A stretch of 64,000 bases of DNA, taken from assembly GCF_007991655.1 (NCBI RefSeq), contig NZ_BJYT01000005.1, positions 124,001-188,000 of the forward strand, in the 5' to 3' direction. Positions 30,016 through 50,213 of this stretch are shown piece after piece (within the stretch, counting starts at the first letter, position 1; every line of letters starts with the position of its first letter). The position numbers and the translations under genes are program-made. This DNA is from Segetibacter aerophilus. Lineage in GTDB: Bacteria > Bacteroidota > Bacteroidia > Chitinophagales > Chitinophagaceae. Below the pieces are notes generated by a model. That model made no database searches. It saw only the letters and a list, made by a program, of their open reading frames with translations, and was not told the origin of the DNA.

Positions 30016-31512
30016 TTACTTACCTGGCATCCATCTTTCCTTAAATTTATGGTACAACTGGATAGCGTCGGGGGTAAGTTGAAGGTAAAATATGCCAGTA
30101 ATAAAAATGGTAGTAAAAACAATCGATCTACCTATTATACTAAACCATCCGGTGGTAGATCGGAATAAAAAGAAGGCAACAGCGAAGGCGACAGCACCCA
30201 CTATTATAGAGTAAACAGTTTTAATGGTAAAGGGCTGCATATTAAACCTTCTTCTGAGGAACTCGAAACGAATTCCGTTGTAAATGGTATACGAAAAAAC
30301 CTCGGCAAAGGCAGAGCCGATGATTCCGTAGTGCTTAATGAGAAGATAGGTAACAGGGATTCGGAAGGCAAGTAGAACAACACCACTAATGAAATCGAAG
30401 CGCCAGAAAATAGAAGTGCCAATAATAGTTCCATTTACGCCTGTACCTGCATCGATTAGCCTCGCTATCCCTAAAACAAATACAACATAAATTCCCTCAT
30501 TGTAGTCTTTCTGTATATTGAACACAGCAAAGCCGTCATTGATATTTAGCCAGATATTTCCGAAAATGAAAGCAGCCAACAACAACAGATTAATACAGCT
30601 TCTTTGATAAATTCTATTGATCTCCGCGTAGTTTTTGTCTTTCCAAGCTTGCGACAAAATGCCGGTAGTTATAGACTGAATACTTCTTTGCGGAACTTGC
30701 ACAAGGTTAGCTGCATATTGCGCAAGATTGAACACACCTGTACTTCCTAATCCCTTTAGACTTGCTATAATAAATGTATCTATAGTCTGTGCGACGATTT
30801 GTATCATCACTCCACCGTAAACCAACGCCCACATACTTAGCATTTTCTTTTTAAACTTTTTTGTCGGACGACTAACAGTGAAAGTGAGGTGGAATTTCTT
30901 AAGCTTTATGAGGTATAAGAGTATCGCAAAAAATAATATGAGGTATACCAGGCTGAATAGCTTTATAAAAGTATCGAAGCTTACAACTTTTGTGAGATAT
31001 AAGAGAATCAGGGCAAAAACAATCAAACGCATTCCTGTCTCCTTTAGAAAGTTGGAGACAACGGTTTTGTGCAGTGTCCAGCAAAAAGCCTCAAGCACTG
31101 AAAAGAATAGCATCCCGAAGCCAAAAGGAAAAATGAGGTGGTAATAGGTTAGTACAAGAGGCGCGCGTTGAATATATTTTTTAATAACTAACGGTTCGAA
31201 GACATAGCCGGAAATTAAGACAAGGGTAAACCCGATAAAAGAGCCTGTAAGTGCCCATGTCAGCAGATCGTTCTTTTTATCCTCTACGTTACTTTTGTAG
31301 TAGGGATAAAATTTATACATGATAGGAAGTACACCTAGACTTCCAAAAACAAAAATGTTTTGGCCCAAATCATAAAAAATGCGTGTTAGACCAAATTGCT
31401 CGGGCGAAAAAGAACCGTTGCGGGTAAAGAAGTAAGTATTAACAGCTCCGATAAAAAAACCAAAATAAACGATTATACTACTAAGGATTGCCTGTTTGCG
31501 GATATTCGCCAT
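30016..31512 (-). CDS. Wzx-like polysaccharide flippase (MOP superfamily)
   Basis: The 498-residue protein is almost wholly hydrophobic, with about 12-14 predicted membrane helices, and begins QAILSSIIVYFGFFIGAVNTYFFTR. That opening, together with segments such as GSTGVFNLAQYAANLVQVPQRSIQSI, is typical of lipopolysaccharide or polysaccharide exporters of the MOP/MATE superfamily. It would move lipid-linked glycan units across the inner membrane. It follows the M1 peptidase gene by 18 bp on the same strand, so the two may be co-transcribed although functionally unrelated. The glycosyltransferases nearby could supply the substrate. Confidence 0.85.
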   Translation of the reverse strand: MANIRKQAILSSIIVYFGFFIGAVNTYFFTRNGSFSPEQFGLTRIFYDLGQNIFVFGSLGVLPIMYKFYPYYKSNVEDKKNDLLTWALTGSFIGFTLVLISGYVFEPLVIKKYIQRAPLVLTYYHLIFPFGFGMLFFSVLEAFCWTLHKTVVSNFLKETGMRLIVFALILLYLTKVVSFDTFIKLFSLVYLILFFAILLYLIKLKKFHLTFTVSRPTKKFKKKMLSMWALVYGGVMIQIVAQTIDTFIIASLKGLGSTGVFNLAQYAANLVQVPQRSIQSITTGILSQAWKDKNYAEINRIYQRSCINLLLLAAFIFGNIWLNINDGFAVFNIQKDYNEGIYVVFVLGIARLIDAGTGVNGTIIGTSIFWRFDFISGVVLLAFRIPVTYLLIKHYGIIGSAFAEVFSYTIYNGIRFEFLRRRFNMQPFTIKTVYSIIVGAVAFAVAFFLFRSTTGWFSIIGRSIVFTTIFITGIFYLQLTPDAIQLYHKFKERWMPGK

Positions 31513-33855: not shown

Positions 33856-34926
33856 ATGGATAAATTTTACCTAATAATATTTTTATTAATTTCTTCCTGC
33901 TTGTGTTCGGCACAAGTAGGAACCCTCGATTCTTCTTTTGGCGACAACGGGCTGCTATTTCGTGACTACCGTATGTCGGACAAAATAGACGCAAACAATA
34001 AAGTAACTCAACCTGACGGGAAAACTGTAGTGGTCGGAAGTGTGCGGGGAAAACTTGGAGACGACTTTAGCGTTACTAGATATAATGTCGACGGATCTTT
34101 AGATAAAACTTTCAGTGACGACGGACAGCAAATCACAGATTTCGGCACCGCTAACGATGTAGCTTACTCAGTAGCACTTCAGGGAGATAAGATTGTTGTA
34201 GCCGGTTGTGCATCAAGGGTAGGTAATACCAGCTTTGCCATAGCGAGGTATAACTCTAACGGTTCTCTAGATGATACTTTTAGCAGCGATGGATTACAGA
34301 CAACTAATTTTAATGCCATTGCTATATGCAATGCGGTAGCAACCCAGGGGAATAAAATATTAGTAGCAGGATATTCATATATAGATAAACCTATTCAGGA
34401 GAGCGATTTCATTGTCGCCAGGTACAATATTGATGGTTCTTTAGATAAAACATTCAGCAACGATGGAATTCAGAAAACAGATTTTTTCGGTTTTGGTGAC
34501 TATGCTAATTCCATTGCACTACAGGGCGATAAAATTGTAGTGGCTGGAGATGCTGTATCATCAAGCAGCGGTTACCTAACAACAGCTATAGCAAGGTATA
34601 ATAGCGATGGCTCTTTAGATAAATCTTTTAGTGGCGACGGTTTGCAAACAACAGGTATTAGCAGTTCCGCTTCCCTCATTGTACAAAAGGACAAAATTTT
34701 AGTAGCAGCTTATGGAACCGATGATTTTATTGTTTTCTGTTATAACTCTAATGGAGCTTTAGATAAAACTTTTGGTAACGACGGTATACAAAGAACCCAT
34801 TTTGGAACTAATTATTATGCCCAGACTAATTCTATTTCCATGGAACAGGGGAAGATTATAATAACCGGAAATCTCTACGACTCTAAAAAGGGAATTAGGC
34901 AACTTGTTATGGTGCGATATAAATGA
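33856..34926 (+). CDS. secreted delta-60 repeat (DUF5122) beta-propeller-like protein
   Basis: The 356-residue protein has a signal peptide (LIIFLLISSCLCSAQ) and six copies of a repeat of about 55-60 residues with the pattern ARYNxDGSLDKTFSxDGxQxTxF alternating with GDKIVVAG. These are the delta-60 repeats known from secreted proteins of Bacteroidota and myxobacteria, thought to form a beta-propeller. It ends VMVRYK without a recognisable T9SS C-terminal domain, so it may be retained in the periplasm or use an unknown route. It is monocistronic. The function of the family is unknown. Confidence 0.88.
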   Translation: MDKFYLIIFLLISSCLCSAQVGTLDSSFGDNGLLFRDYRMSDKIDANNKVTQPDGKTVVVGSVRGKLGDDFSVTRYNVDGSLDKTFSDDGQQITDFGTANDVAYSVALQGDKIVVAGCASRVGNTSFAIARYNSNGSLDDTFSSDGLQTTNFNAIAICNAVATQGNKILVAGYSYIDKPIQESDFIVARYNIDGSLDKTFSNDGIQKTDFFGFGDYANSIALQGDKIVVAGDAVSSSSGYLTTAIARYNSDGSLDKSFSGDGLQTTGISSSASLIVQKDKILVAAYGTDDFIVFCYNSNGALDKTFGNDGIQRTHFGTNYYAQTNSISMEQGKIIITGNLYDSKKGIRQLVMVRYK

Positions 34927-35012: not shown

Positions 35013-35100
35013 AAAGCAAAAAGCCCAAGGCATTGAAAAACAACACTTGAGCTTTAGTACCGAGGAGCAGACTTGAACTGCCGACTTTCAGGTTATGAAT
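35013..35100. repeat. distal copy of the tRNA-Met 3' half (att-like direct repeat)
   Basis: These 88 bp match 37858-37945 with about four differences and in the same orientation. On the minus strand they comprise the tRNA-Met sequence from the anticodon loop through the T arm to the acceptor 3' strand, then the hairpin terminator. No 5' half is present, so this is not a functional tRNA. The arrangement is the classic footprint left when an element integrates into the 3' end of a tRNA gene. Confidence 0.82.
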
Positions 35101-35646
35101 TGGTATGGGACTGAAAATTTGGAAACTGTTATTAAAACTATATAACAACAGTACAATGATTAAAAAGGAGCTTATTAAAAACTCTATTTAAATTAAATCC
35201 TGATTTGTTAAGCAAATCCTTGCACTAATAAAAAGCATTTTACATATTTATAAGAAATTATAAAGCTTTAGTATAGTAACATTTAATAAATGCTTTTTAC
35301 TACTTAATGCTATAAGCGTGAGGAGAAGCAGGTTGAGAGTTTTGAGTTAAAATGAACTTGCAAATTTATATTAAACAGAATATTTTTTTGGAGCTAGGTT
35401 TAAAGAGGAGGAAGTAATTACTGGTAAAAATTATTGGGCGTACTCTCCAAAGACAGAGTAAATTTTTCAATAAGTGATAAGAGCGTTAGACTTTTTAGAA
35501 ATTAAGTTATAGAGATTCTAGCCTCTATTGCCAACTTGGCTAATTGGACAAGGAAGGTTCTTAGGGTTGTCTAAGGTTATGAAATTATCAAATAACTGGA
35601 GGTCAAATAAAAGTTATTTCGGAAGCGGGAAGTGTGTTAGTCTATA
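35101..35646. other. AT-rich non-coding stretch inside the mini-island
   Basis: This 546-bp stretch is visibly richer in A and T than its surroundings and holds no credible gene. It contains an inverted repeat, AAAAAGCATTT (35230-35240) with AAATGCTTTTT (35288-35298). It separates the att-like copy from the kinase gene. No integrase remnant was recognised by reading. Confidence 0.5.
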
Positions 35647-35685
35647 GTGAAGTTACTATTCAGTGTATTAATTGAATTTTTTAAA

Positions 35686-37839
35686 ATGAAAAGCTTACTT
35701 CAGAGAAGCATTTTCTCTTGCATTTTGGCCATCTGTACTATTACAGCATATAATCAAAATATCGATTCTCTACGACGCATACTTCACACTAGTAAACAAG
35801 ACACAACTATTATAAATACTTTGAATGTTATTAGCGTTGTATTGTCAACCAAAGGCAATTATGAAAATGCTTTGAAATATGCAAAAGAAGCATTAACAAG
35901 GGCAACAAAAGCAGGCTTCAAAAAAGGCATAGCGGACGCATATTTTAGCCTGGGTTGGTATTACAAGGTGCAGTTAAATTACTCAGAGGCCTTTAAGAAC
36001 TATTTTACTTCACTGACTATACTTACTAAGACAGGTGATAAAAAAAGTATTGCCGATATGTATTTAAATATAGCCGGGCTCTACTTCAATCAAGGAAATT
36101 ACGGAGAACATCTAAAAAATCAATATGAAGCGTTAAAGCTTTATGAACAAATAGATTACAAACCTGGTATTGGAGTCGCTTTACATGGGATGGGATCAGT
36201 TTACTTATATCTAAAAAATGAAGAAGAAGCACTAAAGTATTTTAAAAAAGCTCTAGAAATATTTGAAGAAACGGGCGAACGATTTGGAATTGCACAATCT
36301 TCAAATAGTATTGGGAAGATTTATGCAGATCAAGGCAAATACCTTGAAGCGTTGAAATTGCATTTAGCAGCAAAGAACATATTTGAAGAACCTGGTGCGC
36401 CTAGTTGGGGTGTTCCTTTTTCCTATTCCTGCATTGGCGATGTTTATAAAAAACAGGGCGAAAGGGCATTTGCAAAAAAAGATACTGCAACGGCTATTAA
36501 GATGTTTTCTAAGGGAATGGAAAATTATTTTGCTGCCTCAGTAGGCTCAGAAAAAGCCGGGAACAAATTGGATGTCGCACAATCCTACATACAGCTAGGC
36601 GAGGTTAACCTAAAGCTAAGCCGTTTCGTTCAAGCAAGGCAGTTTCTTGAGAAGGCATTGTTATTATCAAAATCACTAAACGATAAAGAAACTACTAAAG
36701 ACGCATACTATAATTTATTCAGCTTAGACAGCGCAGAGAAAAAAACGAATGAAGCACTAGACAACTATAAAAAGTATATACTGTATCGAGATAATTTGAT
36801 CAACGAAGAAAATATAAGAAAAGCATTACAAGCTAAAGTTCAATACGGGTTGTACAAAGAAGAGTTAGAAGAGCAGCAAAAAAAAAGCAGACGGTTTTTT
36901 TCATTTGTGCTGTTGGGGTTTCTCGTCATTGTTTCTGTCTTAATAGCCTTTATTCAATGGCGGAACAACAAACAAAAGCAGAAAGCAAACGTTCTGCTCA
37001 CGAAGCAGAAGGAAGAAATACAATTTACGTTAGCCGAACTTAAAGCTACACAAGCTCAACTGGTGCAGCGAGAAAAATTAGCTTCCTTAGGACAAATGAC
37101 GGCAGGTATCGCTCATGAAATTGAGAACCCCTTAAATTTTGTCAATAATTTTTCTGAAATAAACACCGAACTTCTTGAAGAGTTACAAGCCCAACTTAGC
37201 GCAGGAAATGCTCAAGAGGCGCTTTCTATTTCAAATTATCTGAAAGAAAACGAACGGAAAATCAATGATCATGGTAAACGTGCCGATTCTATTGTAAAGG
37301 GGATGCTGCAACACTCGCGCGTTACTTCAAATAAAAAAGAGCTTACGAATATAAATGATTTGGCTAATGAATACCTAAGGTTAAGCGTGCATAGCTTACG
37401 AGCCAAAGACAACACGTTCAACGTTTCTATAGAAACAAACTTTGATGATAATATAGAAGAGCTATTAATTGTTCCACAAGACATCGGGAGAGTCCTTATA
37501 AATATATATAACAATGCTTTTTATTCCTTACATGAAAAAGCAAAACAATATAGCGACGAATATGTCCCTAAGCTTTGGATAACGACTAAAGGTTCTGTAA
37601 AAAATGGGGAATTAAAGAGTGTACAAATACGCATAAAAGATAATGGAATGGGTATACCCGACAATATATTAGATAAGATATATCAACCTTTTTTTACGAC
37701 CAAGCCTACGGGCCAAGGAACGGGTCTTGGCTTATCTTTAAGCTATGATATTATTACAAACGAGCATAATGGCGAATTAAAGGTGCAAACAAGTGCAGGA
37801 GAATATGCTGAATTTATAATCGAACTGCCAAAAAAATGA
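35686..37839 (+). CDS. TPR-containing sensor histidine kinase
   Basis: The ATG at 35686 gives 717 residues with a signal peptide; the GTG at 35647 would put 13 residues before it. Periplasmic tetratricopeptide repeats span about 40-345 (for example GNYENALKYAKEALTRA, EEALKYFKKALEIFEE). One membrane helix lies at about 405-425, then a coiled coil (VLLTKQKEEIQFTLAELKATQAQL). The kinase core has His477 in AGIAHEIENPLNFVNNF, NIYNNAFYSL, DNGMGIP, QPFFTTK and GTGLGLSLSYDI. No response regulator is adjacent. It is the only gene between the two tRNA-Met-derived direct repeats. Confidence 0.92.
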   Translation: MKSLLQRSIFSCILAICTITAYNQNIDSLRRILHTSKQDTTIINTLNVISVVLSTKGNYENALKYAKEALTRATKAGFKKGIADAYFSLGWYYKVQLNYSEAFKNYFTSLTILTKTGDKKSIADMYLNIAGLYFNQGNYGEHLKNQYEALKLYEQIDYKPGIGVALHGMGSVYLYLKNEEEALKYFKKALEIFEETGERFGIAQSSNSIGKIYADQGKYLEALKLHLAAKNIFEEPGAPSWGVPFSYSCIGDVYKKQGERAFAKKDTATAIKMFSKGMENYFAASVGSEKAGNKLDVAQSYIQLGEVNLKLSRFVQARQFLEKALLLSKSLNDKETTKDAYYNLFSLDSAEKKTNEALDNYKKYILYRDNLINEENIRKALQAKVQYGLYKEELEEQQKKSRRFFSFVLLGFLVIVSVLIAFIQWRNNKQKQKANVLLTKQKEEIQFTLAELKATQAQLVQREKLASLGQMTAGIAHEIENPLNFVNNFSEINTELLEELQAQLSAGNAQEALSISNYLKENERKINDHGKRADSIVKGMLQHSRVTSNKKELTNINDLANEYLRLSVHSLRAKDNTFNVSIETNFDDNIEELLIVPQDIGRVLINIYNNAFYSLHEKAKQYSDEYVPKLWITTKGSVKNGELKSVQIRIKDNGMGIPDNILDKIYQPFFTTKPTGQGTGLGLSLSYDIITNEHNGELKVQTSAGEYAEFIIELPKK

Positions 37840-37857
37840 AGCTATTATAGAGCCTAC

Positions 37858-37945
37858 AAAGTAAAAAGCCCAAGGCATTGAAAAACAATACTTGAGCTTT
37901 AGTACCGAGGAGCAGACTTGAACTGCCGACCTTCGGGTTATGAAT
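37858..37945. repeat. proximal copy of the tRNA-Met 3' half (att-like direct repeat)
   Basis: This is the counterpart of 35013-35100 at an offset of 2,845 bp. It overlaps the 3' half of the intact tRNA-Met and its terminator. Together the two copies delimit a 2.8-kb segment lying on the 3' side of the tRNA. Confidence 0.82.
37863..37900 (-). terminator. terminator of tRNA-Met, shared with the kinase gene end
   Basis: On the minus strand AAAGCTCAAG pairs with CTTGGGCTTT (10 bp, one G-T) and is followed by a T-run. It begins 2 bp past the tRNA. The kinase gene ends just beyond it from the other side. The whole hairpin is duplicated at 35013. Confidence 0.78.
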
Positions 37946-37976
37946 CCGATGCTCTAACCAGCTGAGCTACCTCGGC
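37903..37976 (-). tRNA. tRNA-Met (CAT)
   Basis: A 74-nt cloverleaf with acceptor GCCGAGG and CCTCGGT, D arm GCTC...GAGC, anticodon loop TTCATAA (anticodon CAT), and T arm GGCAG-TTCAAGT-CTGCT. It has no encoded CCA. The first-pair mismatch pattern of the initiator is absent, so it is elongator Met, or possibly the Ile tRNA whose C34 is modified to lysidine. Confidence 0.93.
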
Positions 37977-38022: not shown

Positions 38023-38238
38023 TCAAGCTAAACAAAGAGAATTTTGGCAGGCAGATTCTATTAATGCAAATACTTCTTCTACTGTCTGAACTACTCTAAA
38101 AGTTTCATTATTAGAAAAGGTAAGAACTGTCGAAGCGTTGCGACTGATCAGGTCTTTTTTAATAGAAATTACATTATTCATATTTAGAAAAAGAGGTTCA
38201 TCTCCATCTTTCCATACTTCAATTAAACACGGCTTCAT
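38023..38238 (-). CDS. small hypothetical protein (71 aa)
   Basis: The protein reads MKPCLIEVWKDGDEPLFLNMNNVISIKKDL and continues with a hydrophilic beta-rich stretch and an amphipathic helical end (VVQTVEEVFALIESACQN). The pattern, a short beta unit with N-x-NNVISI then TFSNNETFRVVQTVEEV, looks like a genuine small folded protein, possibly with homologues in related genomes, but I cannot name the family. It is transcribed toward tRNA-Met and divergently from the carboxypeptidase gene. Confidence 0.6.
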   Translation of the reverse strand: MKPCLIEVWKDGDEPLFLNMNNVISIKKDLISRNASTVLTFSNNETFRVVQTVEEVFALIESACQNSLCLA

Positions 38239-38403
38239 AATTACTGTTTAGCGTTTAAGAACAACCTTTTAAACAAAAGGTTCAAATTCTTTTTAATGGA
38301 GTTTCCACTTTTTATTCTTAAGTCCTTTAAAGCTTACCTGTGCTAATTCTTGAATTCCGCCATATCCTTTCGTTTTCGATTTAACTTGAGCTTTTTAAAA
38401 AAT

Positions 38404-39900
38404 ATGTCTTCTACCGAAAAGTTATATCTCGAATACAAAAGTGTTATGCAAAAGGTCGCGGACGTAAAGTATGCCGCAGCAGTGTTACAATGGGACCAGG
38501 AAACATATTTACCAGAAAAAGGTGCAGAGTTCCGGGGGAGGCAGTTAGCCACCCTAAGTGAGATAAGTCATGAAATGTTTATTAACGACAAGAATGAAGG
38601 TCTGCTAAAAGACTTGCTGTCAAAGGACTTGCCTCAGGAACAAAAAAGAAATGTAGCGTTGACATGGGAAGACTATAGCAGGTTGAAAAAATTAACTCCC
38701 GAGTTTGTGAGGAAGATGAGTGAGACGGTATCTGCAAGCTTCTTTGCATGGATTGAAGCAAGGAAGCAAAATAGCTATAAAATCTTCGAGCCTAAACTAG
38801 CTCCTTTGGTTGATTTAAAGCGGCAGGAGGCGGAACTGTATGGATATGAAGGTCACCCGTATAATGCGTTGATGGATGAATATGAAAAAGGAGCGACCGT
38901 ACAAAAAATCGATACAATTTTTGAAGACATTAAATTACCGCTGCGTCAACTTCTTTCAGAGATACAAAATGATCGACCTGTTGATGATAGTTTTCTTCGC
39001 CAGCATTTTCTGAAACAGCAGCAATGGGAGTGGGGTATGTACCTCGCGAAGCAACTGGGCTTTGATTTTGAAAGAGGTCGGCAAGATATATCGGAGCATC
39101 CCTTTACAACAAACTTTAGTAGCCAGGATGTAAGAATTACTACTCGTATAGATGAGCATGACTTTGCAAATATGACCTGGAGCACTATTCACGAAGTCGG
39201 TCATGCTTTGTACGAACAAGGGTTGCCGCCAGAGCAATATGGATTGCCGCTGGGCGAGTACGCTTCATTAGGTATTCACGAATCGCAATCGCGTCTCTGG
39301 GAAAATTGTGTGGGACGAGGAAATGCTTTCTGGAGCTATTACCTCCCTCAGCTCAAGCAGTTTTTTCCCGAACAGTTTAAAGATGTTTCAAAGGATCAGT
39401 TCCTGAAGGCTATTAACAAAGTACAACCGTCGCTCGTTAGAGCTGAGGCAGATGAGCTGACCTATCATTTTCATGTAATGGTGCGTTATGAACTTGAAAA
39501 AAGATTGATCGAAGGATCATTACAGGTAAAAGAAATACCGTTGTATTGGAACGATCAGTACAAAGCCTTGCTGGGGGTTGATGTTCCGGATGATAAAAGC
39601 GGCTGTCTGCAGGATGTACACTGGAGCCATGGAAGCTTCGGCTATTTTGCCACCTATAGCCTCGGCAGCTTTTATGCTGCGCAATTGTGGCAACATGCAA
39701 ACAAAACTATTCCCGGTTTAGAGACCGAAATTTCACAGCAAGGAAAAACAAAATCGCTATTACTGTGGTTACGAAACAACGTACACAAACACGGAAGATT
39801 TTACAACAGCAATGAGCTTTGCGCGGCAGTTACCGGTCACGAACTTGACAGCAAAGTTTTTGTGTCTTATCTAAAAGAGAAGCTAAATGATTTAAAGTAG
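38404..39900 (+). CDS. M32 family metallocarboxypeptidase
   Basis: The ATG at 38404 gives 498 residues, normal for M32 (thermostable carboxypeptidase Taq). The earlier in-frame codon at 38350 is not favoured. HEVGH at His263, Glu264 and His267 binds zinc, followed by ALYEQGLP, the conserved HESQSRLWEN (Glu ligand region) and a C-terminal VHWSHGSFGYFATYSLGSFYAAQ. It removes C-terminal residues from peptides in the cytoplasm. It has no signal peptide or operon partner, and a terminator follows at 39982. Confidence 0.94.
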   Translation: MSSTEKLYLEYKSVMQKVADVKYAAAVLQWDQETYLPEKGAEFRGRQLATLSEISHEMFINDKNEGLLKDLLSKDLPQEQKRNVALTWEDYSRLKKLTPEFVRKMSETVSASFFAWIEARKQNSYKIFEPKLAPLVDLKRQEAELYGYEGHPYNALMDEYEKGATVQKIDTIFEDIKLPLRQLLSEIQNDRPVDDSFLRQHFLKQQQWEWGMYLAKQLGFDFERGRQDISEHPFTTNFSSQDVRITTRIDEHDFANMTWSTIHEVGHALYEQGLPPEQYGLPLGEYASLGIHESQSRLWENCVGRGNAFWSYYLPQLKQFFPEQFKDVSKDQFLKAINKVQPSLVRAEADELTYHFHVMVRYELEKRLIEGSLQVKEIPLYWNDQYKALLGVDVPDDKSGCLQDVHWSHGSFGYFATYSLGSFYAAQLWQHANKTIPGLETEISQQGKTKSLLLWLRNNVHKHGRFYNSNELCAAVTGHELDSKVFVSYLKEKLNDLK

Positions 39901-40353: not shown

Positions 40354-43300
40354 ATGAAAACCATTAAAGGTACATGGTTGCACTTGCTGCAACTAACTGT
40401 ACTAATCTTTATAACAACAGCAGGATCTGCGCAATTACGGGCTGGTTTTCTTGCTACGCCGCTTACAGGGTGCCCTCCAATGGTGGTTAGTTTCACCGAT
40501 ACTTCAAAAGGTAACCCGACTTCGTGGAAGTGGGATTTAGGCAACGGAACCATTTCTTTTCTTCAACATCCAATCGCAACTTATTTTACACCTGGTAGTT
40601 ATAATGTTAAACTCGTAGTTACGAATTTAGCGGGCAAAGACTCCGTAATAAAAAGCCAATACATCGTAGTTAACGCGCTGCCCGTGGCTTACTTCAATCA
40701 ATCGGACTCGACTGGCTGTTTTCCCTTGAAAGTTGCATTTAAAGACAGTAGCATTGCAGGATCTGGTACTGTACAAAAATGGCAATGGGATTTTGGTGAC
40801 GGTACTTTATCTACGGAACAAAACCCTTCGCATACGTACACCAGCCCCGGTAATTTTACTGTTATTTTAAGGGTTACCAATAGCAATGGTTGTTCTGCAG
40901 TGATTACTAAACCTTCGTTGATAACAATACGTGATGGTGTAAATGCTGCCTTTAGCTATACGACCGTTCCCGGTTGTAGCAGTCCGGCACCTGTAAACTT
41001 TATAAATGAATCTAAAGGAACCGGCACGCTAAGCTACTTCTGGGACTTTGGCGACGGTAAGAATTCGACAGCTGCCAATCCGGCTAATAGTTATAATAAT
41101 GGCATTTACACCGTAAAATTGGTTGCAACCAGCAGCTATGGATGTACAGATACTGTTATTAAACCAAATGCTATTAATGTAGGCATTGTACATGCAAGTT
41201 TTTCAAGCCTTGATAGTATTTGTGCGGGCAACAATCTCGAACTAACAAATACTTCAACCCCTGCAACTTTTACCAGTGTAAAGTGGGATTTTGGCGATGG
41301 CGGATCTTCCATTCAAACTAACCCAGGCAGAATTTATGCGAACGCGGGAGTGTATAAAATAAAATTGATTACCACTTTTGGTATTTGCCAGGACTCTGCT
41401 GTAAAAACTATTACTGTTCTTCCAAGGCCAATAGCAGCATTTACTGCATCTAATACTTCGGGATGTACAGGTCCTCTCGTTGTTTCTTTCCAGGATGCCT
41501 CGACTGGTGCAATTTCGTACAAATGGTCTTTTGGAGATGGAGCTACATCAACTCTTAAAAATCCTACACACGATTACACCACACCCGGCACATACTCAGT
41601 AAGCCTGACGGTTACAAATACAAATGGATGTACTACCACTCTTGTTAAGGATAACCTTGTTAAGTTTATTCCGCTAAAAATTGCTTCAATAAATAATCTT
41701 GGTGTTAAAGGTTGTATGCCTGTGATAGTTTCGCCGGTTGCCAGTATGAAAGAAAATGTGTCAGCTTCATCATACTTATGGAATTTTGGTGATGGGTCGA
41801 CCTCTACAAGCGCCACACCTACCCACACTTATACTACAGCCGGAGTTTTTGATGTGACATTGATCGTTTCCGCTGGTGGTGGTTGTTCGGATACGCTCGT
41901 TTATAAAGAGGCAGTAAAAGCAGGTAACAAGCCTCAAACAAAATTTACTGCAGATCCCAGGGATGTGTGTGCTGTTTTGCCTGTTTCTTTTACCGACATG
42001 ACGCCAAAGGGTACTGTAGAAGAATGGAAGTGGTTTTTTGGAGATGGGGCAACTTCAGGAGCACAAAATCCTATTCATAATTACAACGACACAGGTTACT
42101 TCAATGTAAAGTTGGTAGCCACAAACTTTGGTTGTAGTGATACATTGGAAATGAAAAAGTTTGTTCACATAAAACCTCCGATTGCTAAGTTTGATACTGC
42201 TTATAGTTGTAACGATCGCTTCACCCGGAACTTTGTTGACCAATCTCTCGGTGCTATGACCTGGGCCTGGAATTTCGGAGACGGATCTACTTCAACAGAA
42301 CAAAATCCTTCACATACTTATTCAGCTCAAGGTGGGTATACTGCAATTTTAACTGTTACTAATGGCGACTGTCAGCATACGGTTAAAAAGAATGTGGTTG
42401 TATTGAACGAGCAAGGAAAGTTAGCGGTAAGCGATAGCATTAATTGTGTTAATACTCGCGTCGTTTTTGATGTGAAAAACGTAAACCCTGCAAATATCTC
42501 CAGTTACAACTGGTACTTTAACGGCATTACTGAAAATGTAATCACCACCACTAATAACCCGGTTACTGTTAGCTTTAATACACCCGGTACACGCAACTCT
42601 GCAGTAATTATTACAGACTTACTTCATTGTTCAGATACTTTATATGCAACCGTGCCTTTAAAGTTTTACGGTCCGAAAGCATCCTTCGAAAGTATATCAC
42701 CTAATACGTGTCTTGGCAATACGGTCAACTTCACTGACTCGTCTAAAACTGATGGCATTCACCCAATCACAGAGTATTTATGGAATTATGGTGAAGGAGA
42801 TCCCGAGAAATATTCCAATGGGCCTTTTTCTCATAATTATGCAGCGTTCGGAAGCTACAATGTTAAGCTTGTAATTAAGGATAGTTATGGTTGTACAGAT
42901 AGCATTACCAAGGCAAGCTTTGTTAGTATTACAAAACCTGTAGCTAAGTTTATTACATCAGATTCGGCTTTATGTCCTTCTTTGCCTATCACTTTTACCA
43001 ATCAATCAGAAGGGGTGGGCGCTACCTACGAGTGGAACTTTGGTGACGGCACAACTTCGGCTAATGTTTCTCCTGTTCACTCTTTCAGCAGTCCTGGTAC
43101 CTACAATGTGGTGATGGTGATGATAGACAAAAACGGTTGTTCTGCCTCAGATTCAACTACAATAAACATTTATACTGCCAAGGCTGACTTCTTGTTGAGT
43201 GACTCCTTTTCAACATGTCCTCCGCTCGTGGTTAACGTAACAAACCAGTCAAAAAATTATATAGATCTTAATTGGGATTTTGGGGATGGCGGTAATTCTC

Positions 43301-45168
43301 AATTGACAAATCCTTCCCATATTTATACTTACCCCGGTAATTATACTTTAAGACTCACTGTAAAGAATAACGGTGGTTGTGTGGATGAACTAACAAAGAA
43401 GGTGGTCATACAAGGCCCTACGGGAGCCTTTGACTACTCGCCGAAACAAGCATGTATGCCGGGTAAAGTTGATTACAAGATTACTGCTCAGAATACGGTT
43501 AGTTATGTGTGGGATTTCAATGATGGTAATACTATCTTTTCGGTCAAAGATGGTGTTTCGCATACTTACATTAATCCGGGCAACTATGTTCCTAAGGTGA
43601 TTTTAGAAGATGGACTTGGATGTAAAGTAGCTTTACAAGGTTTGGATACAATTAGGATATATTCTGTAAATACGAATATTTTAAGCGACAGCAGAATGGT
43701 TTGCGACAGCGGAATTGTTGCTTTCAGAGACTCTACTACTTCGAACGATGGGTTGAAAGGCTTCTTGTGGAACTTCGGTGATGGGATCACTTCAACACTA
43801 AGAAATCCAACACACAATTTTTCCGATACCGGGTTTTATTCTATCAAGCTTATAACTACTACCGCTTTCGGATGTACCGACACGGCTGTTTCTAAAGATT
43901 ATGTCAAGGTGGTTCATTCACCCCTGGTTAAGATATTAGGAGATACTTCTGCGTGCGAACCAGCCAAAATAAAGTTGACAGGAGATTTTGCGCGGGCAGA
44001 TACTTCCGCGATCACATGGGCATGGAGTTTTGGTAATGGCAGTGCTTCGAGTTTACAAAAACCTGATAGCCAAAACTACGTTCGTAGCGGTTCTTACCAG
44101 GTGACTTTAAAGGCGACTAATAGCGATGGTTGCTCAAACGAGGTAACAAGAACAGCTGTAATTCACCCTAAACCGATGGTTGATGCAGGACCAGATGCCG
44201 GTATTTGCCGCTTTGATACTTATAAACTGACGGCGACCGGAGCAAACAGTTATACGTGGCGATCAAATCCTACTTTAAGCTGTGCAAACTGTGCAACACC
44301 GATAGCAAAACCTGACTCTTTAACTACTTACTATGTCACCGGCAAAACCCTGTTTGGATGTACTAACGAGGATTCAGTAACCCTTAAAGTGCAGCAGACA
44401 TTTAAAATGATTGTTGGCAAAGCAGATACTTTATGTAAAGGTGAGGTGGCTACACTAACTGCGTCTGGCGCTGACAACTACCAATGGTCCCCTGCTCTGT
44501 GGCTTAACAACCCCGCCATTGCCTCTCCAAGGGCAAAGCCGGATACGACCATTACTTACCAGGTAATTGGAAAAGACAACAATGGCTGTTTTAGAGATAC
44601 ACAGAATATCAGGATAAAGGTTTATCCGCTCCCTTCTGTCGATATTACAAATGGAGATAACATAACGGTGCAGGTAGGCGGAAGTATTAAACTCAATACG
44701 AAGAACTCACCAGACATTATTAGTTGGAAATGGTTTCCTTCTCAATGGCTAAGTTGTGCCTCTTGTACCGAGCCGCTGGCTGCTCCTAAAGAAAATATCA
44801 CTTATAGTATTACCGCCACTAACGAAGGCAATTGTACTGCAACAGATAAGGTAAGTATAAATCTTATCTGTAATAATACCAACGTGTTCATTCCTAATAC
44901 GTTTTCACCAAATGGGGATGGTATCAATGACGTGTTTTATATTAGGGGTTCTGGACTTTTTAATGTCTTATCGTTCAAAGTATTCAACCGTTGGGGACAG
45001 CTTGTTTACCAGAAAAATGGTGGTGGGGCTAACAATCCGCTTGATGGATGGGATGGTAATCTGAATGGTGCACCCCTTCAGCCAGACGTATACGTTTACC
45101 TGATTGACGTTGTTTGTGCCAACAATACCATATTCCCTTTTAAAGGAAATGTATCATTGATCCGTTAG
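40354..45168 (+). CDS. giant PKD-repeat surface protein with T9SS type B sorting domain (copy 1)
   Basis: The 1,604-residue protein has a signal peptide (LTVLIFITTAGSAQ) and about 15 PKD-type beta-sandwich repeats of roughly 80-90 residues, each marked by a WxFGDG-like core followed by NPxHxYxxPGxYxVxLxVTNxxGC. Three Ig-like repeats then carry paired Cys (SCANCATPIAKP). A C-terminal gliding-motility-type domain follows, FIPNTFSPNGDGINDVFYIRG to GNVSLIR. That domain directs export by the type IX system and attachment to the surface. PKD proteins of this size act in adhesion, polymer binding or gliding. Its neighbour at 45384 is a paralogue. Confidence 0.95.
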   Translation: MKTIKGTWLHLLQLTVLIFITTAGSAQLRAGFLATPLTGCPPMVVSFTDTSKGNPTSWKWDLGNGTISFLQHPIATYFTPGSYNVKLVVTNLAGKDSVIKSQYIVVNALPVAYFNQSDSTGCFPLKVAFKDSSIAGSGTVQKWQWDFGDGTLSTEQNPSHTYTSPGNFTVILRVTNSNGCSAVITKPSLITIRDGVNAAFSYTTVPGCSSPAPVNFINESKGTGTLSYFWDFGDGKNSTAANPANSYNNGIYTVKLVATSSYGCTDTVIKPNAINVGIVHASFSSLDSICAGNNLELTNTSTPATFTSVKWDFGDGGSSIQTNPGRIYANAGVYKIKLITTFGICQDSAVKTITVLPRPIAAFTASNTSGCTGPLVVSFQDASTGAISYKWSFGDGATSTLKNPTHDYTTPGTYSVSLTVTNTNGCTTTLVKDNLVKFIPLKIASINNLGVKGCMPVIVSPVASMKENVSASSYLWNFGDGSTSTSATPTHTYTTAGVFDVTLIVSAGGGCSDTLVYKEAVKAGNKPQTKFTADPRDVCAVLPVSFTDMTPKGTVEEWKWFFGDGATSGAQNPIHNYNDTGYFNVKLVATNFGCSDTLEMKKFVHIKPPIAKFDTAYSCNDRFTRNFVDQSLGAMTWAWNFGDGSTSTEQNPSHTYSAQGGYTAILTVTNGDCQHTVKKNVVVLNEQGKLAVSDSINCVNTRVVFDVKNVNPANISSYNWYFNGITENVITTTNNPVTVSFNTPGTRNSAVIITDLLHCSDTLYATVPLKFYGPKASFESISPNTCLGNTVNFTDSSKTDGIHPITEYLWNYGEGDPEKYSNGPFSHNYAAFGSYNVKLVIKDSYGCTDSITKASFVSITKPVAKFITSDSALCPSLPITFTNQSEGVGATYEWNFGDGTTSANVSPVHSFSSPGTYNVVMVMIDKNGCSASDSTTINIYTAKADFLLSDSFSTCPPLVVNVTNQSKNYIDLNWDFGDGGNSQLTNPSHIYTYPGNYTLRLTVKNNGGCVDELTKKVVIQGPTGAFDYSPKQACMPGKVDYKITAQNTVSYVWDFNDGNTIFSVKDGVSHTYINPGNYVPKVILEDGLGCKVALQGLDTIRIYSVNTNILSDSRMVCDSGIVAFRDSTTSNDGLKGFLWNFGDGITSTLRNPTHNFSDTGFYSIKLITTTAFGCTDTAVSKDYVKVVHSPLVKILGDTSACEPAKIKLTGDFARADTSAITWAWSFGNGSASSLQKPDSQNYVRSGSYQVTLKATNSDGCSNEVTRTAVIHPKPMVDAGPDAGICRFDTYKLTATGANSYTWRSNPTLSCANCATPIAKPDSLTTYYVTGKTLFGCTNEDSVTLKVQQTFKMIVGKADTLCKGEVATLTASGADNYQWSPALWLNNPAIASPRAKPDTTITYQVIGKDNNGCFRDTQNIRIKVYPLPSVDITNGDNITVQVGGSIKLNTKNSPDIISWKWFPSQWLSCASCTEPLAAPKENITYSITATNEGNCTATDKVSINLICNNTNVFIPNTFSPNGDGINDVFYIRGSGLFNVLSFKVFNRWGQLVYQKNGGGANNPLDGWDGNLNGAPLQPDVYVYLIDVVCANNTIFPFKGNVSLIR

Positions 45169-45383: not shown

Positions 45384-48300
45384 TTGTCTCTACTATCACT
45401 ACATATCTACTGGAAAAAATTTCTTTTTTTCCTATTCATCCTTTTTTGCTCAGTAGCAAAAGGGCAATTAGTTGCTGATTTTACGCTTGATATCCGACAG
45501 GGGTGCGCTCCCTTTGTTGTTCCAAAATTTACAAACCTTAGTAAGGGAACAGGTCTGACTTATCTCTGGAGTTTTGGTAATGGAAATACAAGTACTCAGT
45601 TAAATCCCGGTGTTATATATTTTGCGGACGGCAACTACACGGTGAAACTGGTAGTTAGGGATGCTACGGGAAGGAAAGACTCTGTGGTAAAAAGCAATTT
45701 TGTTACCGTTAACAAGAGTCCTGCGGTAAATTTTGCTGCAAGTAGGACAGGCGGCTGTATCCCACTCACGGTTCAGTTTACCGACTTAAGTACTGCCGGT
45801 TCTGGAAACATCACTAAGTGGGAGTGGGACTTTGGCGACGGTAAGACTTCTTTGCTTCGCTCGCCATCTCATACTTTTGATGTAACCGGAAATTTTACGA
45901 TCACCCTAAAAGTCACTAATAGTCTTGGTTGCGTGGAGGTGAATACCAAAACTTCTTACATCAAGGTTAACGAAATACCTAAAGCTAATTTTACCTCGGG
46001 ATCTGCAACCAGTTGTAATCCTCCGGTGATGGTTAATTTTATAAATACATCTACCGGCCCGGGAATAAAGAGTTATAAATGGAACTTCGGAGACGGCTTC
46101 GTTTCTTTTGATCAAAATCCTTCTCACAATTATACTACTGCAGGAAACTATCCCGTCACTCTTATTATTACAAACGAGAACGGATGTGTAGATTCAATTA
46201 GAAAACCTACGGTAATTGGGGCCGTTACTTCCCGCATCACTGTACCTGATGTTATCTGCCAGGGCGCCCCAACAAGTTTCTTAAATGCTTCCACGCCAGC
46301 TGTTGCGTCGAGTTTGTGGGATTTTGGAGATCGAACGACTTCGTCTGAAATTAGCCCTGTAAAAAGTTTTGATGTTCCCGGCTCTTATACTGTGAAACTG
46401 GTTAACAATTTTGGCGGTTGCAAAGATTCTATTACAAAACGTATTACCATCATTCCTAAGCCTGTTGCTAACTTTTCTTACAACGCACCTCCGCCAGGCT
46501 GTAATTTACCAGTAACTGCTTCGTTTACCTCGCAGGCCTCTTCGGCAGCTTCTTACCTTTGGGATTTTGGAGATAGCACTAATTCAAACGCCAGTTCCCC
46601 AACACATACTTACAATAGTTACGGTATATTTTCTGCGAAACTAAAAGTCACTGCTATTAATGGTTGTTCTGATAGTATTGTGAAACCTAATGTTGTTTCG
46701 ATTATAAAGGTGAAGATTAATCGGTTTTTGGGCTTGCCTTATGCCGGTTGTGTTCCCTATCAACCTGCTCTTTCAGCAGACATTACTACACCCAATCCCA
46801 TTAGTTCTTATTTGTGGAATTTTGGCGGCGGACAAACATCCACTGAAGCAAATCCAATACACAATTATTCTAAGGCCGGTAGCTATGATATGTATTTAAA
46901 AGTATCAACTGCCACCGGTTGCACAGACAGCTTCCAATTGAAGAATGCTGTTTCTATAAGTGACAAGCCAAAAGTTGGTTTCTCCGCAGCACCACTAAGC
47001 GCATGCGCTTCTGAAAGTGTACAGTTTAAAAATTTAACAACTGGTACTTTTACCAGCACGAAATGGGAATTCGGTGATGGTTCGACTTCTGAAGCAAATG
47101 ATCCTCTTTACCATTATGCTGATACAGGTCATTTTACAGTCAAACTAATTATTGGCAACACGGCTTGTTACGATTCGCTCACGATGAAGGACTATGTGTA
47201 TGTTAAGCCGCCTATCGCCAACTTCGGTGTTCTCTTTAACTGCGACTCTCCTTTAACCCGAAGATTTCAAAATAAATCAGTTGTAGCAAAGACATATGAA
47301 TGGAATTTCGGAGATGGCTCCGCAGTTTCTACTGATGAAAATCCTACGCACACTTTTGCGGCCTCCGGCATTTATTATGTTCGTTTGCATGTAACAAATG
47401 GGGACTGTTTTGATGATATTACTGATACATTAGAAGTTATTGGTGAAAATCCTGACTTTACTGTTAGTAGTAGTTTACTCTGCAGGAATAATCCAACTGT
47501 ATTTACCGCAAAAATTACCAACTCTCAAAATGTAGCCACCTATAGTTGGGACTTTGGAGATAATTCAAATGTTGTTACCACTACCAGTCCTACAATAGAT
47601 CACAATTATGTTATTGCTGGTACTTACAGTCCGGCATTGACTATCACCGATCGGCTTGGTTGTACGCAGCGGGTGCAAAAGCCAGCGAGCATTACTATTT
47701 ATGGACCGATAGCAAAACTTACGCATCCTGAAGGCACCTGTATCAACTCAAGCCTTACATTTTTAGATAGTAGCATTGCCACCGCCAATCACCCTATTAC
47801 TTCCTGGATGCTGAATTATGGAGATGGGAAGTTTGATACTTCTAAAACTGTTTATCCCACATTTGTTCATACTTATACAGGTGTTAAGAACTATGAAGTT
47901 TTCCTGGTTGTGACCGACGACTCGGGGTGTAAGGATACTTTATTTAGTCCTGGTGGAGTTAACATTACCGATCCCAAGGCTTTGTTTTCGTTGAAGGATT
48001 CAATTTCGTGTAGTAATTCAAACATTGATTTTAGCAACCAATCAAATGGTTTTGATCTTTCATATGCTTGGGATTTTGGTGATGGCCAGCCTGAAACTGT
48101 TGCAAATCCCTCTCATCCCTTTGCAGCAGAAGGAACTTATAATATCTCTTTAGCTATAAAGGATCGATACGGGTGCACAGACACTCTGCAAAAACTAAAT
48201 GCCATTATTATTCAGAACGCGAAGGCTGCATTCGCCATGAGCGACTCTAATATTTCGTGTCCTCCCGCTCAAATAAATTTCTCTGATAATTCAACCTATG

Positions 48301-50213
48301 CAACCTCGCTTAAATGGGATTTTGATGACGGAAATTTCTCAGATATTTCAAATCCATCGCACTATTTTTTAGCTGCCCGTGATTATAATATAAAGCTGAC
48401 AGCTTACGGCCATGGAGCTTGCGCTGATTCGCTGGTAAGAACTGTAACTGTGAAGGGCCCGAGCGGCACTATCGCATATGATCCCATTATTAAATGTTTG
48501 CCGGCTTTGATAAACTTTACGGGTACCGCGGCTAACAATGACAACACCTATACATGGGATTTTGGAGATGGAACAGCAGTAACCACTAGTGAACCTGCAA
48601 TTTCTCACGAGTACACGTCAATAGGAAAATACCTTCCAAAATTGTTGTTGATTGATACTAAGCTTAAGTGTACCGTTTCGATTTTTGGTTCTGATAGTAT
48701 TATTGTGCCCGAAATTATCAGCTATATGAAGGCCCCTAAAAATTTGTTTTGTGATAGTGCTACATTGCGATTTTTTGACTCTTCGGTAGTACGGTTTGAC
48801 CAGATAAGTAATTATCAATGGTCGTTCGGTGACGGTACTACATCTGACGAGGTAAGTCCGTTTCATAATTATACTGCTCCCGGTATTTACCCTGTGCGAT
48901 TAACAGTAACAACTACTGCAGGTTGTACAGACTCGTCAACAAGCAGTTTTGTCAAAATTGTAAAAAGCCCTGAACTTGAAGTAACCGGACCAATTGCGGT
49001 CTGCATTAATCAACCAGCGCAATACTCTGCTACTGTAAAAGACACATCTGCCGTCAGGTGGAATTGGAATTTTGGTAATGGAGCCAGCTCTATTAACCCG
49101 TCGCCACCAGCACAGGTATATACCACTGCCGGCAGTTTTTCAATTAATACCTCTGTCACTAATACGTCAGGTTGTACGACTAGCAAAATAACCCCTCAAA
49201 AGGTGAATGCTCTGCCTAATGTTAGCGCAGGTGTAGACTCGGCCATTTGCCTTGGAGCAACAATTACTTTAAATGCTTCCGGCGCCGATAATTATTTATG
49301 GACGAGCAATACTACCTTAAGCTGCTCCACTTGTTCAACTCCTGTCGCGACGCCTGTAAACCCCGTCGTCTACTATTCTGTGACAGGCACCGATGCTGCT
49401 ACGTCGTGTCAAAAAACGGATTCAGTTCAGATCAAAGTTGTTCAGCCTTTTAAAATTACTACCACAGTTACTGATACTTTGTGCATTGGAGAGTCCGTAA
49501 AACTATTTGTTACGGGGGCCGATACTTATAATTGGACACCAGCTGCAGACTTAAATGATCCTACCAGTTCAACACCCGTTGCAACTCCCCGCAGCACTAC
49601 GACTTATACAGTTACCGGCCATGATTACCTCAATTGTTTTACCGATGTTGCTACCATTCCTATAACGGTGTATCCTATACCTGTTTTCAATATTATTGAA
49701 GATAATATCACCATAGCTATAGGAAACAGTGCACCAATTAAAACCAAAAGTTCTGCGGATGTTATAAACTGGCAATGGTTTCCAACCACAGGCTTAAGTT
49801 GTAGCAATTGTGCTGAAACAGTAACTACTCCTACCAATACAATTGTTTATAAGGCGATCGCTACCAATGAAGGTGGTTGCAAGGCTGAGGATAGAATAAC
49901 TATTAATGTCTTTTGCAACAATGGTAATCTTTTCGTTCCGAATACCTTCTCGCCTAACAACGATGGAAGCAACGACATCTTTTATCCAAGGGGTAAAGGA
50001 ATTGCGGGAGTCAAAAGCTTGCAAATTTTTAATAGGTGGGGAAGCCAGGTCTTTCAGAAAACAGACTTTGCAATCAATGATCCGTCTTCGGGATGGGATG
50101 GAACTTTTAACGGAAAGCCGCAAGAGCCGAATGTATTTGTCTATCAAATAGAAGTGATCTGCGAAACCGGGCAAGTCTTTAGTTTTAAAGGAGATGTTAC
50201 ATTAATCAGGTAG
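45384..50213 (+). CDS. giant PKD-repeat surface protein with T9SS type B sorting domain (copy 2)
   Basis: About 1,609 residues from a TTG at 45384, chosen because it directly precedes a signal peptide (SLLSLHIYWKKFLFFLFILFCSVAKGQ). The longer frame from the TTG at 45270 would translate through a strong terminator hairpin, and no in-frame ATG exists before the signal peptide. It has about 15 PKD repeats, three Ig-like repeats and the type B sorting domain (FVPNTFSPNNDGSNDIFYPRG to GDVTLIR), collinear with copy 1. It is exported and probably surface-bound. No T9SS machinery gene lies in the window. Confidence 0.93.
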   Translation: MSLLSLHIYWKKFLFFLFILFCSVAKGQLVADFTLDIRQGCAPFVVPKFTNLSKGTGLTYLWSFGNGNTSTQLNPGVIYFADGNYTVKLVVRDATGRKDSVVKSNFVTVNKSPAVNFAASRTGGCIPLTVQFTDLSTAGSGNITKWEWDFGDGKTSLLRSPSHTFDVTGNFTITLKVTNSLGCVEVNTKTSYIKVNEIPKANFTSGSATSCNPPVMVNFINTSTGPGIKSYKWNFGDGFVSFDQNPSHNYTTAGNYPVTLIITNENGCVDSIRKPTVIGAVTSRITVPDVICQGAPTSFLNASTPAVASSLWDFGDRTTSSEISPVKSFDVPGSYTVKLVNNFGGCKDSITKRITIIPKPVANFSYNAPPPGCNLPVTASFTSQASSAASYLWDFGDSTNSNASSPTHTYNSYGIFSAKLKVTAINGCSDSIVKPNVVSIIKVKINRFLGLPYAGCVPYQPALSADITTPNPISSYLWNFGGGQTSTEANPIHNYSKAGSYDMYLKVSTATGCTDSFQLKNAVSISDKPKVGFSAAPLSACASESVQFKNLTTGTFTSTKWEFGDGSTSEANDPLYHYADTGHFTVKLIIGNTACYDSLTMKDYVYVKPPIANFGVLFNCDSPLTRRFQNKSVVAKTYEWNFGDGSAVSTDENPTHTFAASGIYYVRLHVTNGDCFDDITDTLEVIGENPDFTVSSSLLCRNNPTVFTAKITNSQNVATYSWDFGDNSNVVTTTSPTIDHNYVIAGTYSPALTITDRLGCTQRVQKPASITIYGPIAKLTHPEGTCINSSLTFLDSSIATANHPITSWMLNYGDGKFDTSKTVYPTFVHTYTGVKNYEVFLVVTDDSGCKDTLFSPGGVNITDPKALFSLKDSISCSNSNIDFSNQSNGFDLSYAWDFGDGQPETVANPSHPFAAEGTYNISLAIKDRYGCTDTLQKLNAIIIQNAKAAFAMSDSNISCPPAQINFSDNSTYATSLKWDFDDGNFSDISNPSHYFLAARDYNIKLTAYGHGACADSLVRTVTVKGPSGTIAYDPIIKCLPALINFTGTAANNDNTYTWDFGDGTAVTTSEPAISHEYTSIGKYLPKLLLIDTKLKCTVSIFGSDSIIVPEIISYMKAPKNLFCDSATLRFFDSSVVRFDQISNYQWSFGDGTTSDEVSPFHNYTAPGIYPVRLTVTTTAGCTDSSTSSFVKIVKSPELEVTGPIAVCINQPAQYSATVKDTSAVRWNWNFGNGASSINPSPPAQVYTTAGSFSINTSVTNTSGCTTSKITPQKVNALPNVSAGVDSAICLGATITLNASGADNYLWTSNTTLSCSTCSTPVATPVNPVVYYSVTGTDAATSCQKTDSVQIKVVQPFKITTTVTDTLCIGESVKLFVTGADTYNWTPAADLNDPTSSTPVATPRSTTTYTVTGHDYLNCFTDVATIPITVYPIPVFNIIEDNITIAIGNSAPIKTKSSADVINWQWFPTTGLSCSNCAETVTTPTNTIVYKAIATNEGGCKAEDRITINVFCNNGNLFVPNTFSPNNDGSNDIFYPRGKGIAGVKSLQIFNRWGSQVFQKTDFAINDPSSGWDGTFNGKPQEPNVFVYQIEVICETGQVFSFKGDVTLIR

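Follow-up and report, generated by a model that had tools for sequence, protein, structure and literature searches.

A probable CIME-like remnant of a tRNA-Met island that kept a TPR-histidine kinase in Segetibacter aerophilus

Introduction

Two described systems provide the closest framework for the element reported here. In the portion of PMC5704250 that defines them, cis-mobilizable elements (CIMEs) keep both attL and attR, and the genes for integration and transfer are absent. At the ssrA gene of Dehalococcoides, PMC3146451 describes cargo-only islands without an integration module as well as sister islands that bear a recombinase. Because both have been described, the insert that we found in a 64,000-nucleotide stretch of S. 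aerophilus contig NZ_BJYT01000005.1 (hereafter the window) belongs to an already known class of element. We read this insert, with a probability of roughly three in four, as a decayed, CIME-like tRNA-Met island that lost its integrase and kept an orphan kinase. No paper on this tRNA-Met site was found in the literature, as judged by titles and the starts of abstracts; the papers found for Segetibacter concerned communities of soil or plants.

Results

Repeat and target tRNA

The feature correctly ranges from 35013 to 37976, and its parts and neighbours are as follows.

33856-34926, plus strand: left-flank marker gene, DUF5122 beta-propeller, which adjoins the single tRNA copy in genome G006
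35013-35100, minus strand: distal att-like copy, an orphan fragment 84/88 identical to 37858-37945
35101-35646, no strand: AT-rich non-coding DNA with no recognisable remnant, 29.5% GC
35647-37839, plus strand: uninterrupted TPR-histidine kinase (from ORF, translation and Pfam)
37858-37945, minus strand: tRNA-proximal att-like copy, direct repeat of 35013-35100
37902-37976, minus strand: intact tRNA-Met(CAU) (ARAGORN; Rfam RF00005, 65.8 bits, from 37903)
38023-39900: right-flank markers, a 71-aa ORF (minus strand) and an M32 carboxypeptidase (plus strand)

The first-pass annotation had described an 88-bp direct repeat of the tRNA-Met 3' half with its terminator, and the two copies do agree at 84 of 88 positions. 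Coordinates and strands likewise confirm the geometry that it proposed, with the intact tRNA at one end and the fragment on its 3' side in the same orientation. The tRNA-proximal copy falls inside the intact gene and its terminator and comprises the 3' part of the tRNA plus 44 bp that include the terminator; the distal copy likewise holds the tRNA-Met sequence from the anticodon loop to the 3' end, together with the terminator. Beyond the edge of the anticodon loop the two copies are no longer similar. For comparison, no other ungapped 88-mer in the window agrees at more than 43 positions (40 for the best on the other strand), and the maximum over 20 mononucleotide shuffles of the window is 45. 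The repeat occurs in exactly two copies at E<=0.001 in the assembly (5.89 Mb, 79 contigs), which rules out a dispersed simple repeat, an outcome that the first-pass annotation had named as fatal to its proposal. The locus therefore has the layout of a tRNA-targeted island, a tRNA 3'-part repeat at the far end and an intact tRNA at the near end, and tRNA-Met(CAU) is its probable integration target.

One property of the repeat argues against a simple island: it extends 44 bp beyond the tRNA and takes in the terminator, whereas the repeats of comparable inserts in G005 and G110 stop ~3 nt past the tRNA. The two copies also share nearly the same terminator version. This would fit an origin that needed no recombinase: either a DNA fragment with a tRNA-Met 3' half recombined into the locus, through RecA or illegitimately, or the sequence was duplicated and rearranged locally. 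In G017, G028 and G127, partial copies of tRNA-Met also extend beyond the end of the tRNA; they lie within ~1 kb of it and look like local duplications, so the repeat alone is no proof of an integrase. However, a breakpoint at the anticodon loop, this orientation and an empty site are hallmarks of tRNA-specific integration, and the same tRNA is used by recombinase-bearing inserts in G007 and G110; we accordingly regard a recombinase-free origin as unlikely. Under site-specific integration, a donor of the same lineage or later gene conversion between the copies would explain a repeat that spans the terminator.

Empty site and flanking genes

The empty site predicted for a relative was found in one genome, G006 of the same genus, where a single contig carries conserved flanks, one tRNA-Met with its terminator and no kinase. 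Gene order in G006 (homologue of the ORF at 30016, M1, DUF5122, tRNA-Met with terminator, orf71, M32, PKD gene) is that of the window minus the fragment, the insert and the kinase. The joined window flanks can be aligned across the G006 site; the alignment is good over the tRNA, the terminator and the right flank, and poor over 100 bp on the left side. The simplest explanation is that the window lineage gained the insert, although an exact deletion in G006 would leave the site looking no different. The M32 gene also lies at the 5' side of tRNA-Met in G001, G005, G006, G007, G008 and G009. In G003 the tRNA-Met (L030 8419-8493) points towards M32, inverted relative to the window. Farther along the window, 40354-45168 and 45450-50210 encode neighbouring, very long proteins that by eye resemble PKD-like repeat proteins and are ~42% identical to each other.

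Fixation of the kinase and both repeats at this locus across relatives would have spoken against a mobile origin in the first-pass annotation, and it was rejected: no close match to the island kinase lies beside tRNA-Met in the stretches read from eight other same-genus genomes, that of G001 ending with its contig ~275 bp past tRNA-Met. The sole match at E<=1e-8 in G004 is a 74-residue stretch, 43% identical, ~6.8 kb from tRNA-Met. Other kinases, which by eye look PAS-type, flank tRNA-Met in G004 and are found close to it in G003.

Other occupants of the tRNA-Met site

At E<=1e-12, tRNA-Met was matched in nine of ten same-genus genomes (our own included; G002 gave no match), with two matches in three of them, namely our own (G000), G005 and G007. 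Across the family, 113 of 147 genomes matched at E<=1e-9, with at most six candidates scored per genome, and two matches were found in G000, G017, G110 and G127. This tRNA-Met(CAU) is an insertion hotspot: other genomes carry inserts there of 2.7, 11.4 and ~37 kb, and in the two larger ones a tyrosine recombinase lies beside an att copy. The largest is the 36.8-kb insert of G007 (tRNA-Met at C2:143588-143662, fragment at C2:180439-180537), with a 375-aa tyrosine recombinase ~75 bp from the fragment and genes that by eye look like restriction systems; just past the fragment lies a second, frame-broken recombinase, 42-45% identical to that of G110. The insert of G110, from another genus of the family, measures 11.4 kb, is bounded by a perfect 55-nt repeat and encodes a 389-aa tyrosine recombinase ~107 bp from the tRNA. 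The smallest, in G005, occupies ~2.7 kb between the intact tRNA-Met and a tRNA fragment; it holds a piece of a transposase and an ORF of 278 aa that matches nothing in Pfam, and no recombinase was seen in it. In G005 (L025 839-918 and 3664-3738) the intact tRNA-Met and the old fragment differ in their anticodon and acceptor stems as well, and the former resembles the tRNA of G001. The ends of the window insert share no sequence with those of the G005, G007 and G110 inserts at E<=0.05.

Elsewhere in the genus, different genes lie behind tRNA-Met in G008, where no tRNA fragment occurs within 3.6 kb of it, and no fragment occurs in the stretch read from G004. In G009 a degenerate fragment sits 24 bp behind the terminator and is followed by a cyclase-TPR gene. 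With its fragment scar, this gene would be a second signalling occupant if orphan signalling genes were exchanged through the hotspot. In that picture, to which we give very little weight, the insert would be a minimal, integrase-free cassette that shuttles sensor kinases via tRNA-Met with integrases borrowed from other tRNA islands.

Content of the insert

As first described, the repeats enclose one kinase gene and AT-rich non-coding DNA with no recognisable integrase: the segment from 35101 to 37857 (2757 bp, or 2.76 kb) has one long ORF, on the plus strand. GC content is 34.4% in the insert and 40.0% in the window, and the 29.5% of the 546 bp before the kinase is the lowest in the window (rank 1 of 635 sliding windows of that size). 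Among 294 family genomes, with two candidates scored per genome, only our own gave a full-length match to 35090-35660, and three others matched over 33-40 bp; no second copy of the insert's parts was found in our assembly. These 546 bp are possibly the ruined remains of lost island genes. An integrase remnant in 35101-35700 was rejected, as no stop-to-stop frame there exceeds 41 aa and matches of the G007 integrase to the insert region are at chance level (E>=0.4). At the other end, the non-coding gap from the kinase stop to the tRNA-side repeat measures just 18 bp and would leave little room for a recombinase arm site on that side.

The orphan kinase

The kinase begins at GTG 35647 (730 aa) or, more probably, at ATG 35686 (717 aa), and stops at 37839. 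Pfam matches it to TPR_12 (5.3e-38), HATPase_c (7.9e-17) and HisKA (6.7e-05, under the curated cut-off), and its translation shows by eye H, N, G1, F and G2 motifs, which we take to be the phospho-acceptor histidine and the ATP-binding motifs. No match to a Bacteroidetes-type promoter motif precedes the gene.

The family is expanded in the genus, with seven of ten genomes matching a G009 relative at E<=1e-40 and seven matches to that relative in our own genome, the island kinase included. Because the family is so abundant, the cargo does not prove foreign origin. Carriage by phage or plasmid was rejected: the kinase has no phage match at E<=1e-20, and the 21 of 72,556 plasmid records that match at E<=1e-40 do so partially, none covering 80% of the kinase and the ten listed matches involving its catalytic part only.

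The gene looks mosaic because its catalytic end (37258-37839) is ~81% identical in DNA to a paralogue on contig C303 of G009 and the rest is not. In 40-codon bins, identity stays at 34-58% as far as ~37258 and then rises to 76-85% for the remainder of the gene (81.3% over 579 bp); the M32 gene of the same two genomes is 73.8% identical, below the value for the catalytic end. Probably at least one of these two kinase genes is recombinant. The last 193 codons give dN 0.099 and dS 0.93 in this pair, values that would be consistent with purifying selection on the catalytic domain. The sharp jump in identity also indicates that kinases of this family recombine, which lends a measure of support to the recombinase-free origin considered above.

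Integrases in the genome and mobilisation in trans

A site-specific recombinase, which may be lost from remnants, was not recognised inside the insert, as Pfam finds no integrase domain in its only long ORF. The genome has 18 PF00589 matches, 17 of them above the cut-off and none on the window's contig (C5), and seven lie 3' of a tRNA gene at a distance of ~1.1 kb or less. The search for a helper integrase proposed in the first-pass annotation gave a divided answer: the G007 type has no match in our genome at E<=1e-3, and the G110 type has one distant relative, a 436-aa frame beside tRNA-Arg(ACG) that is 47% identical over residues 165-389 (the C-terminal part) and 31% over 1-161. Its locus (G000:C4:93430-94662; L099 ~530-1860) has tRNA-Arg(ACG) on one side and a Trp-Phe-Cys tRNA cluster on the other. 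With the one type unmatched and the other distant and at tRNA-Arg, the comparison with these two types names no matching helper.

These observations bear on whether the insert is a non-autonomous satellite, that is, a compact cargo carrier whose att sites still work and which an integrase from another locus excises and integrates in trans. Nearly identical att copies, a kinase that reads through without a stop, the integrases beside tRNA genes and the distant G110 relative are compatible with such an element. Against it stand not only the results for the G007 and G110 types, but also the narrow gap before the tRNA-side repeat, the dissimilarity of the insert's ends to those of the G005, G007 and G110 inserts, and its presence in one copy. 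Of the two options in the first-pass annotation, decayed island or trans satellite, the former is favoured by the results for the G007 and G110 integrases, and the satellite, with no match to the G007 type, a distant relative of the G110 type and an 18-bp gap, appears improbable.

Other tRNA genes of the genome were searched for comparable mini-islands, and their presence was rejected. For 41 tRNA matches, up to ~18.5 kb of the 3' side was scanned (down to ~1.6 kb at contig ends), excluding matches within 90 bp and on other tRNA genes, and the window's tRNA-Met was the only one with a long copy of its 3' part. For tRNA-Arg(CCU) the copy is 17 nt long: the 3' end of this tRNA recurs exactly, in the same orientation, at a distance of 17.9 kb (L091 601-617 and 18483-18555; G000:C6 ~277900 and 295783), with a tyrosine recombinase match nearby at C6:278863-279318. 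This locus is probably a conventional tRNA-Arg island.

Discussion

The reading that we favour, a decayed tRNA-Met island, is built on the near-identical repeat, the empty site in G006, the other occupants of the site with their recombinases in G007 and G110, and the low GC and uniqueness of the insert's first part among the 294 sampled genomes. In the proposed sequence of events, an island would have entered the 3' part of tRNA-Met(CAU) by site-specific recombination, and the tRNA would have stayed intact because the incoming attP restored its 3' end and terminator. The displaced chromosomal 3' part would have become the distal fragment at 35013-35100. Internal loss would next have stripped the island of its recombinase and of transfer genes, if it had any, so that an orphan TPR-histidine kinase and AT-rich debris remained between the att copies. 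As no trace of a recombinase was found in the insert, we infer both integration by a tyrosine recombinase and the later loss of that enzyme. Re-mobilisation may be possible if an island with matching att specificity arrives.

This work documents tRNA-Met(CAU) as an insertion hotspot in the genus and the family, and the window insert illustrates, in a small and clear case, how island decay may leave one regulatory gene in place. If its att sites still work, the insert would be a convenient minimal substrate for studying cross-recognition by integrases in trans.

Among known elements, the nearest in the genus is the 36.8-kb island of G007, which shares the target tRNA, its side and orientation and a distal tRNA fragment with the window insert. 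Unlike the window insert, it holds an integrase and, by eye, restriction-like genes; the sequence behind its intact tRNA is different and the ends are dissimilar. With CIMEs, as defined by PMC5704250, the insert shares att copies at both ends, a position at a tRNA 3' end and a lack of recognised integration or transfer genes, so that at the level of sequence attL and attR are kept and genes for integration and transfer are absent. It differs from them in its very small size, its single cargo gene and the lack of a parent ICE or IME among the elements found. The ssrA islands of Dehalococcoides, in the account of PMC3146451, are likewise cargo-only and bounded by direct repeats of an RNA-gene 3' end, and at both sites sister islands keep a recombinase. 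That account describes tmRNA as the target, a serine recombinase, tandem islands and reductive dehalogenase genes, whereas the site reported here combines tRNA-Met, tyrosine recombinases in the sister islands and a single kinase.
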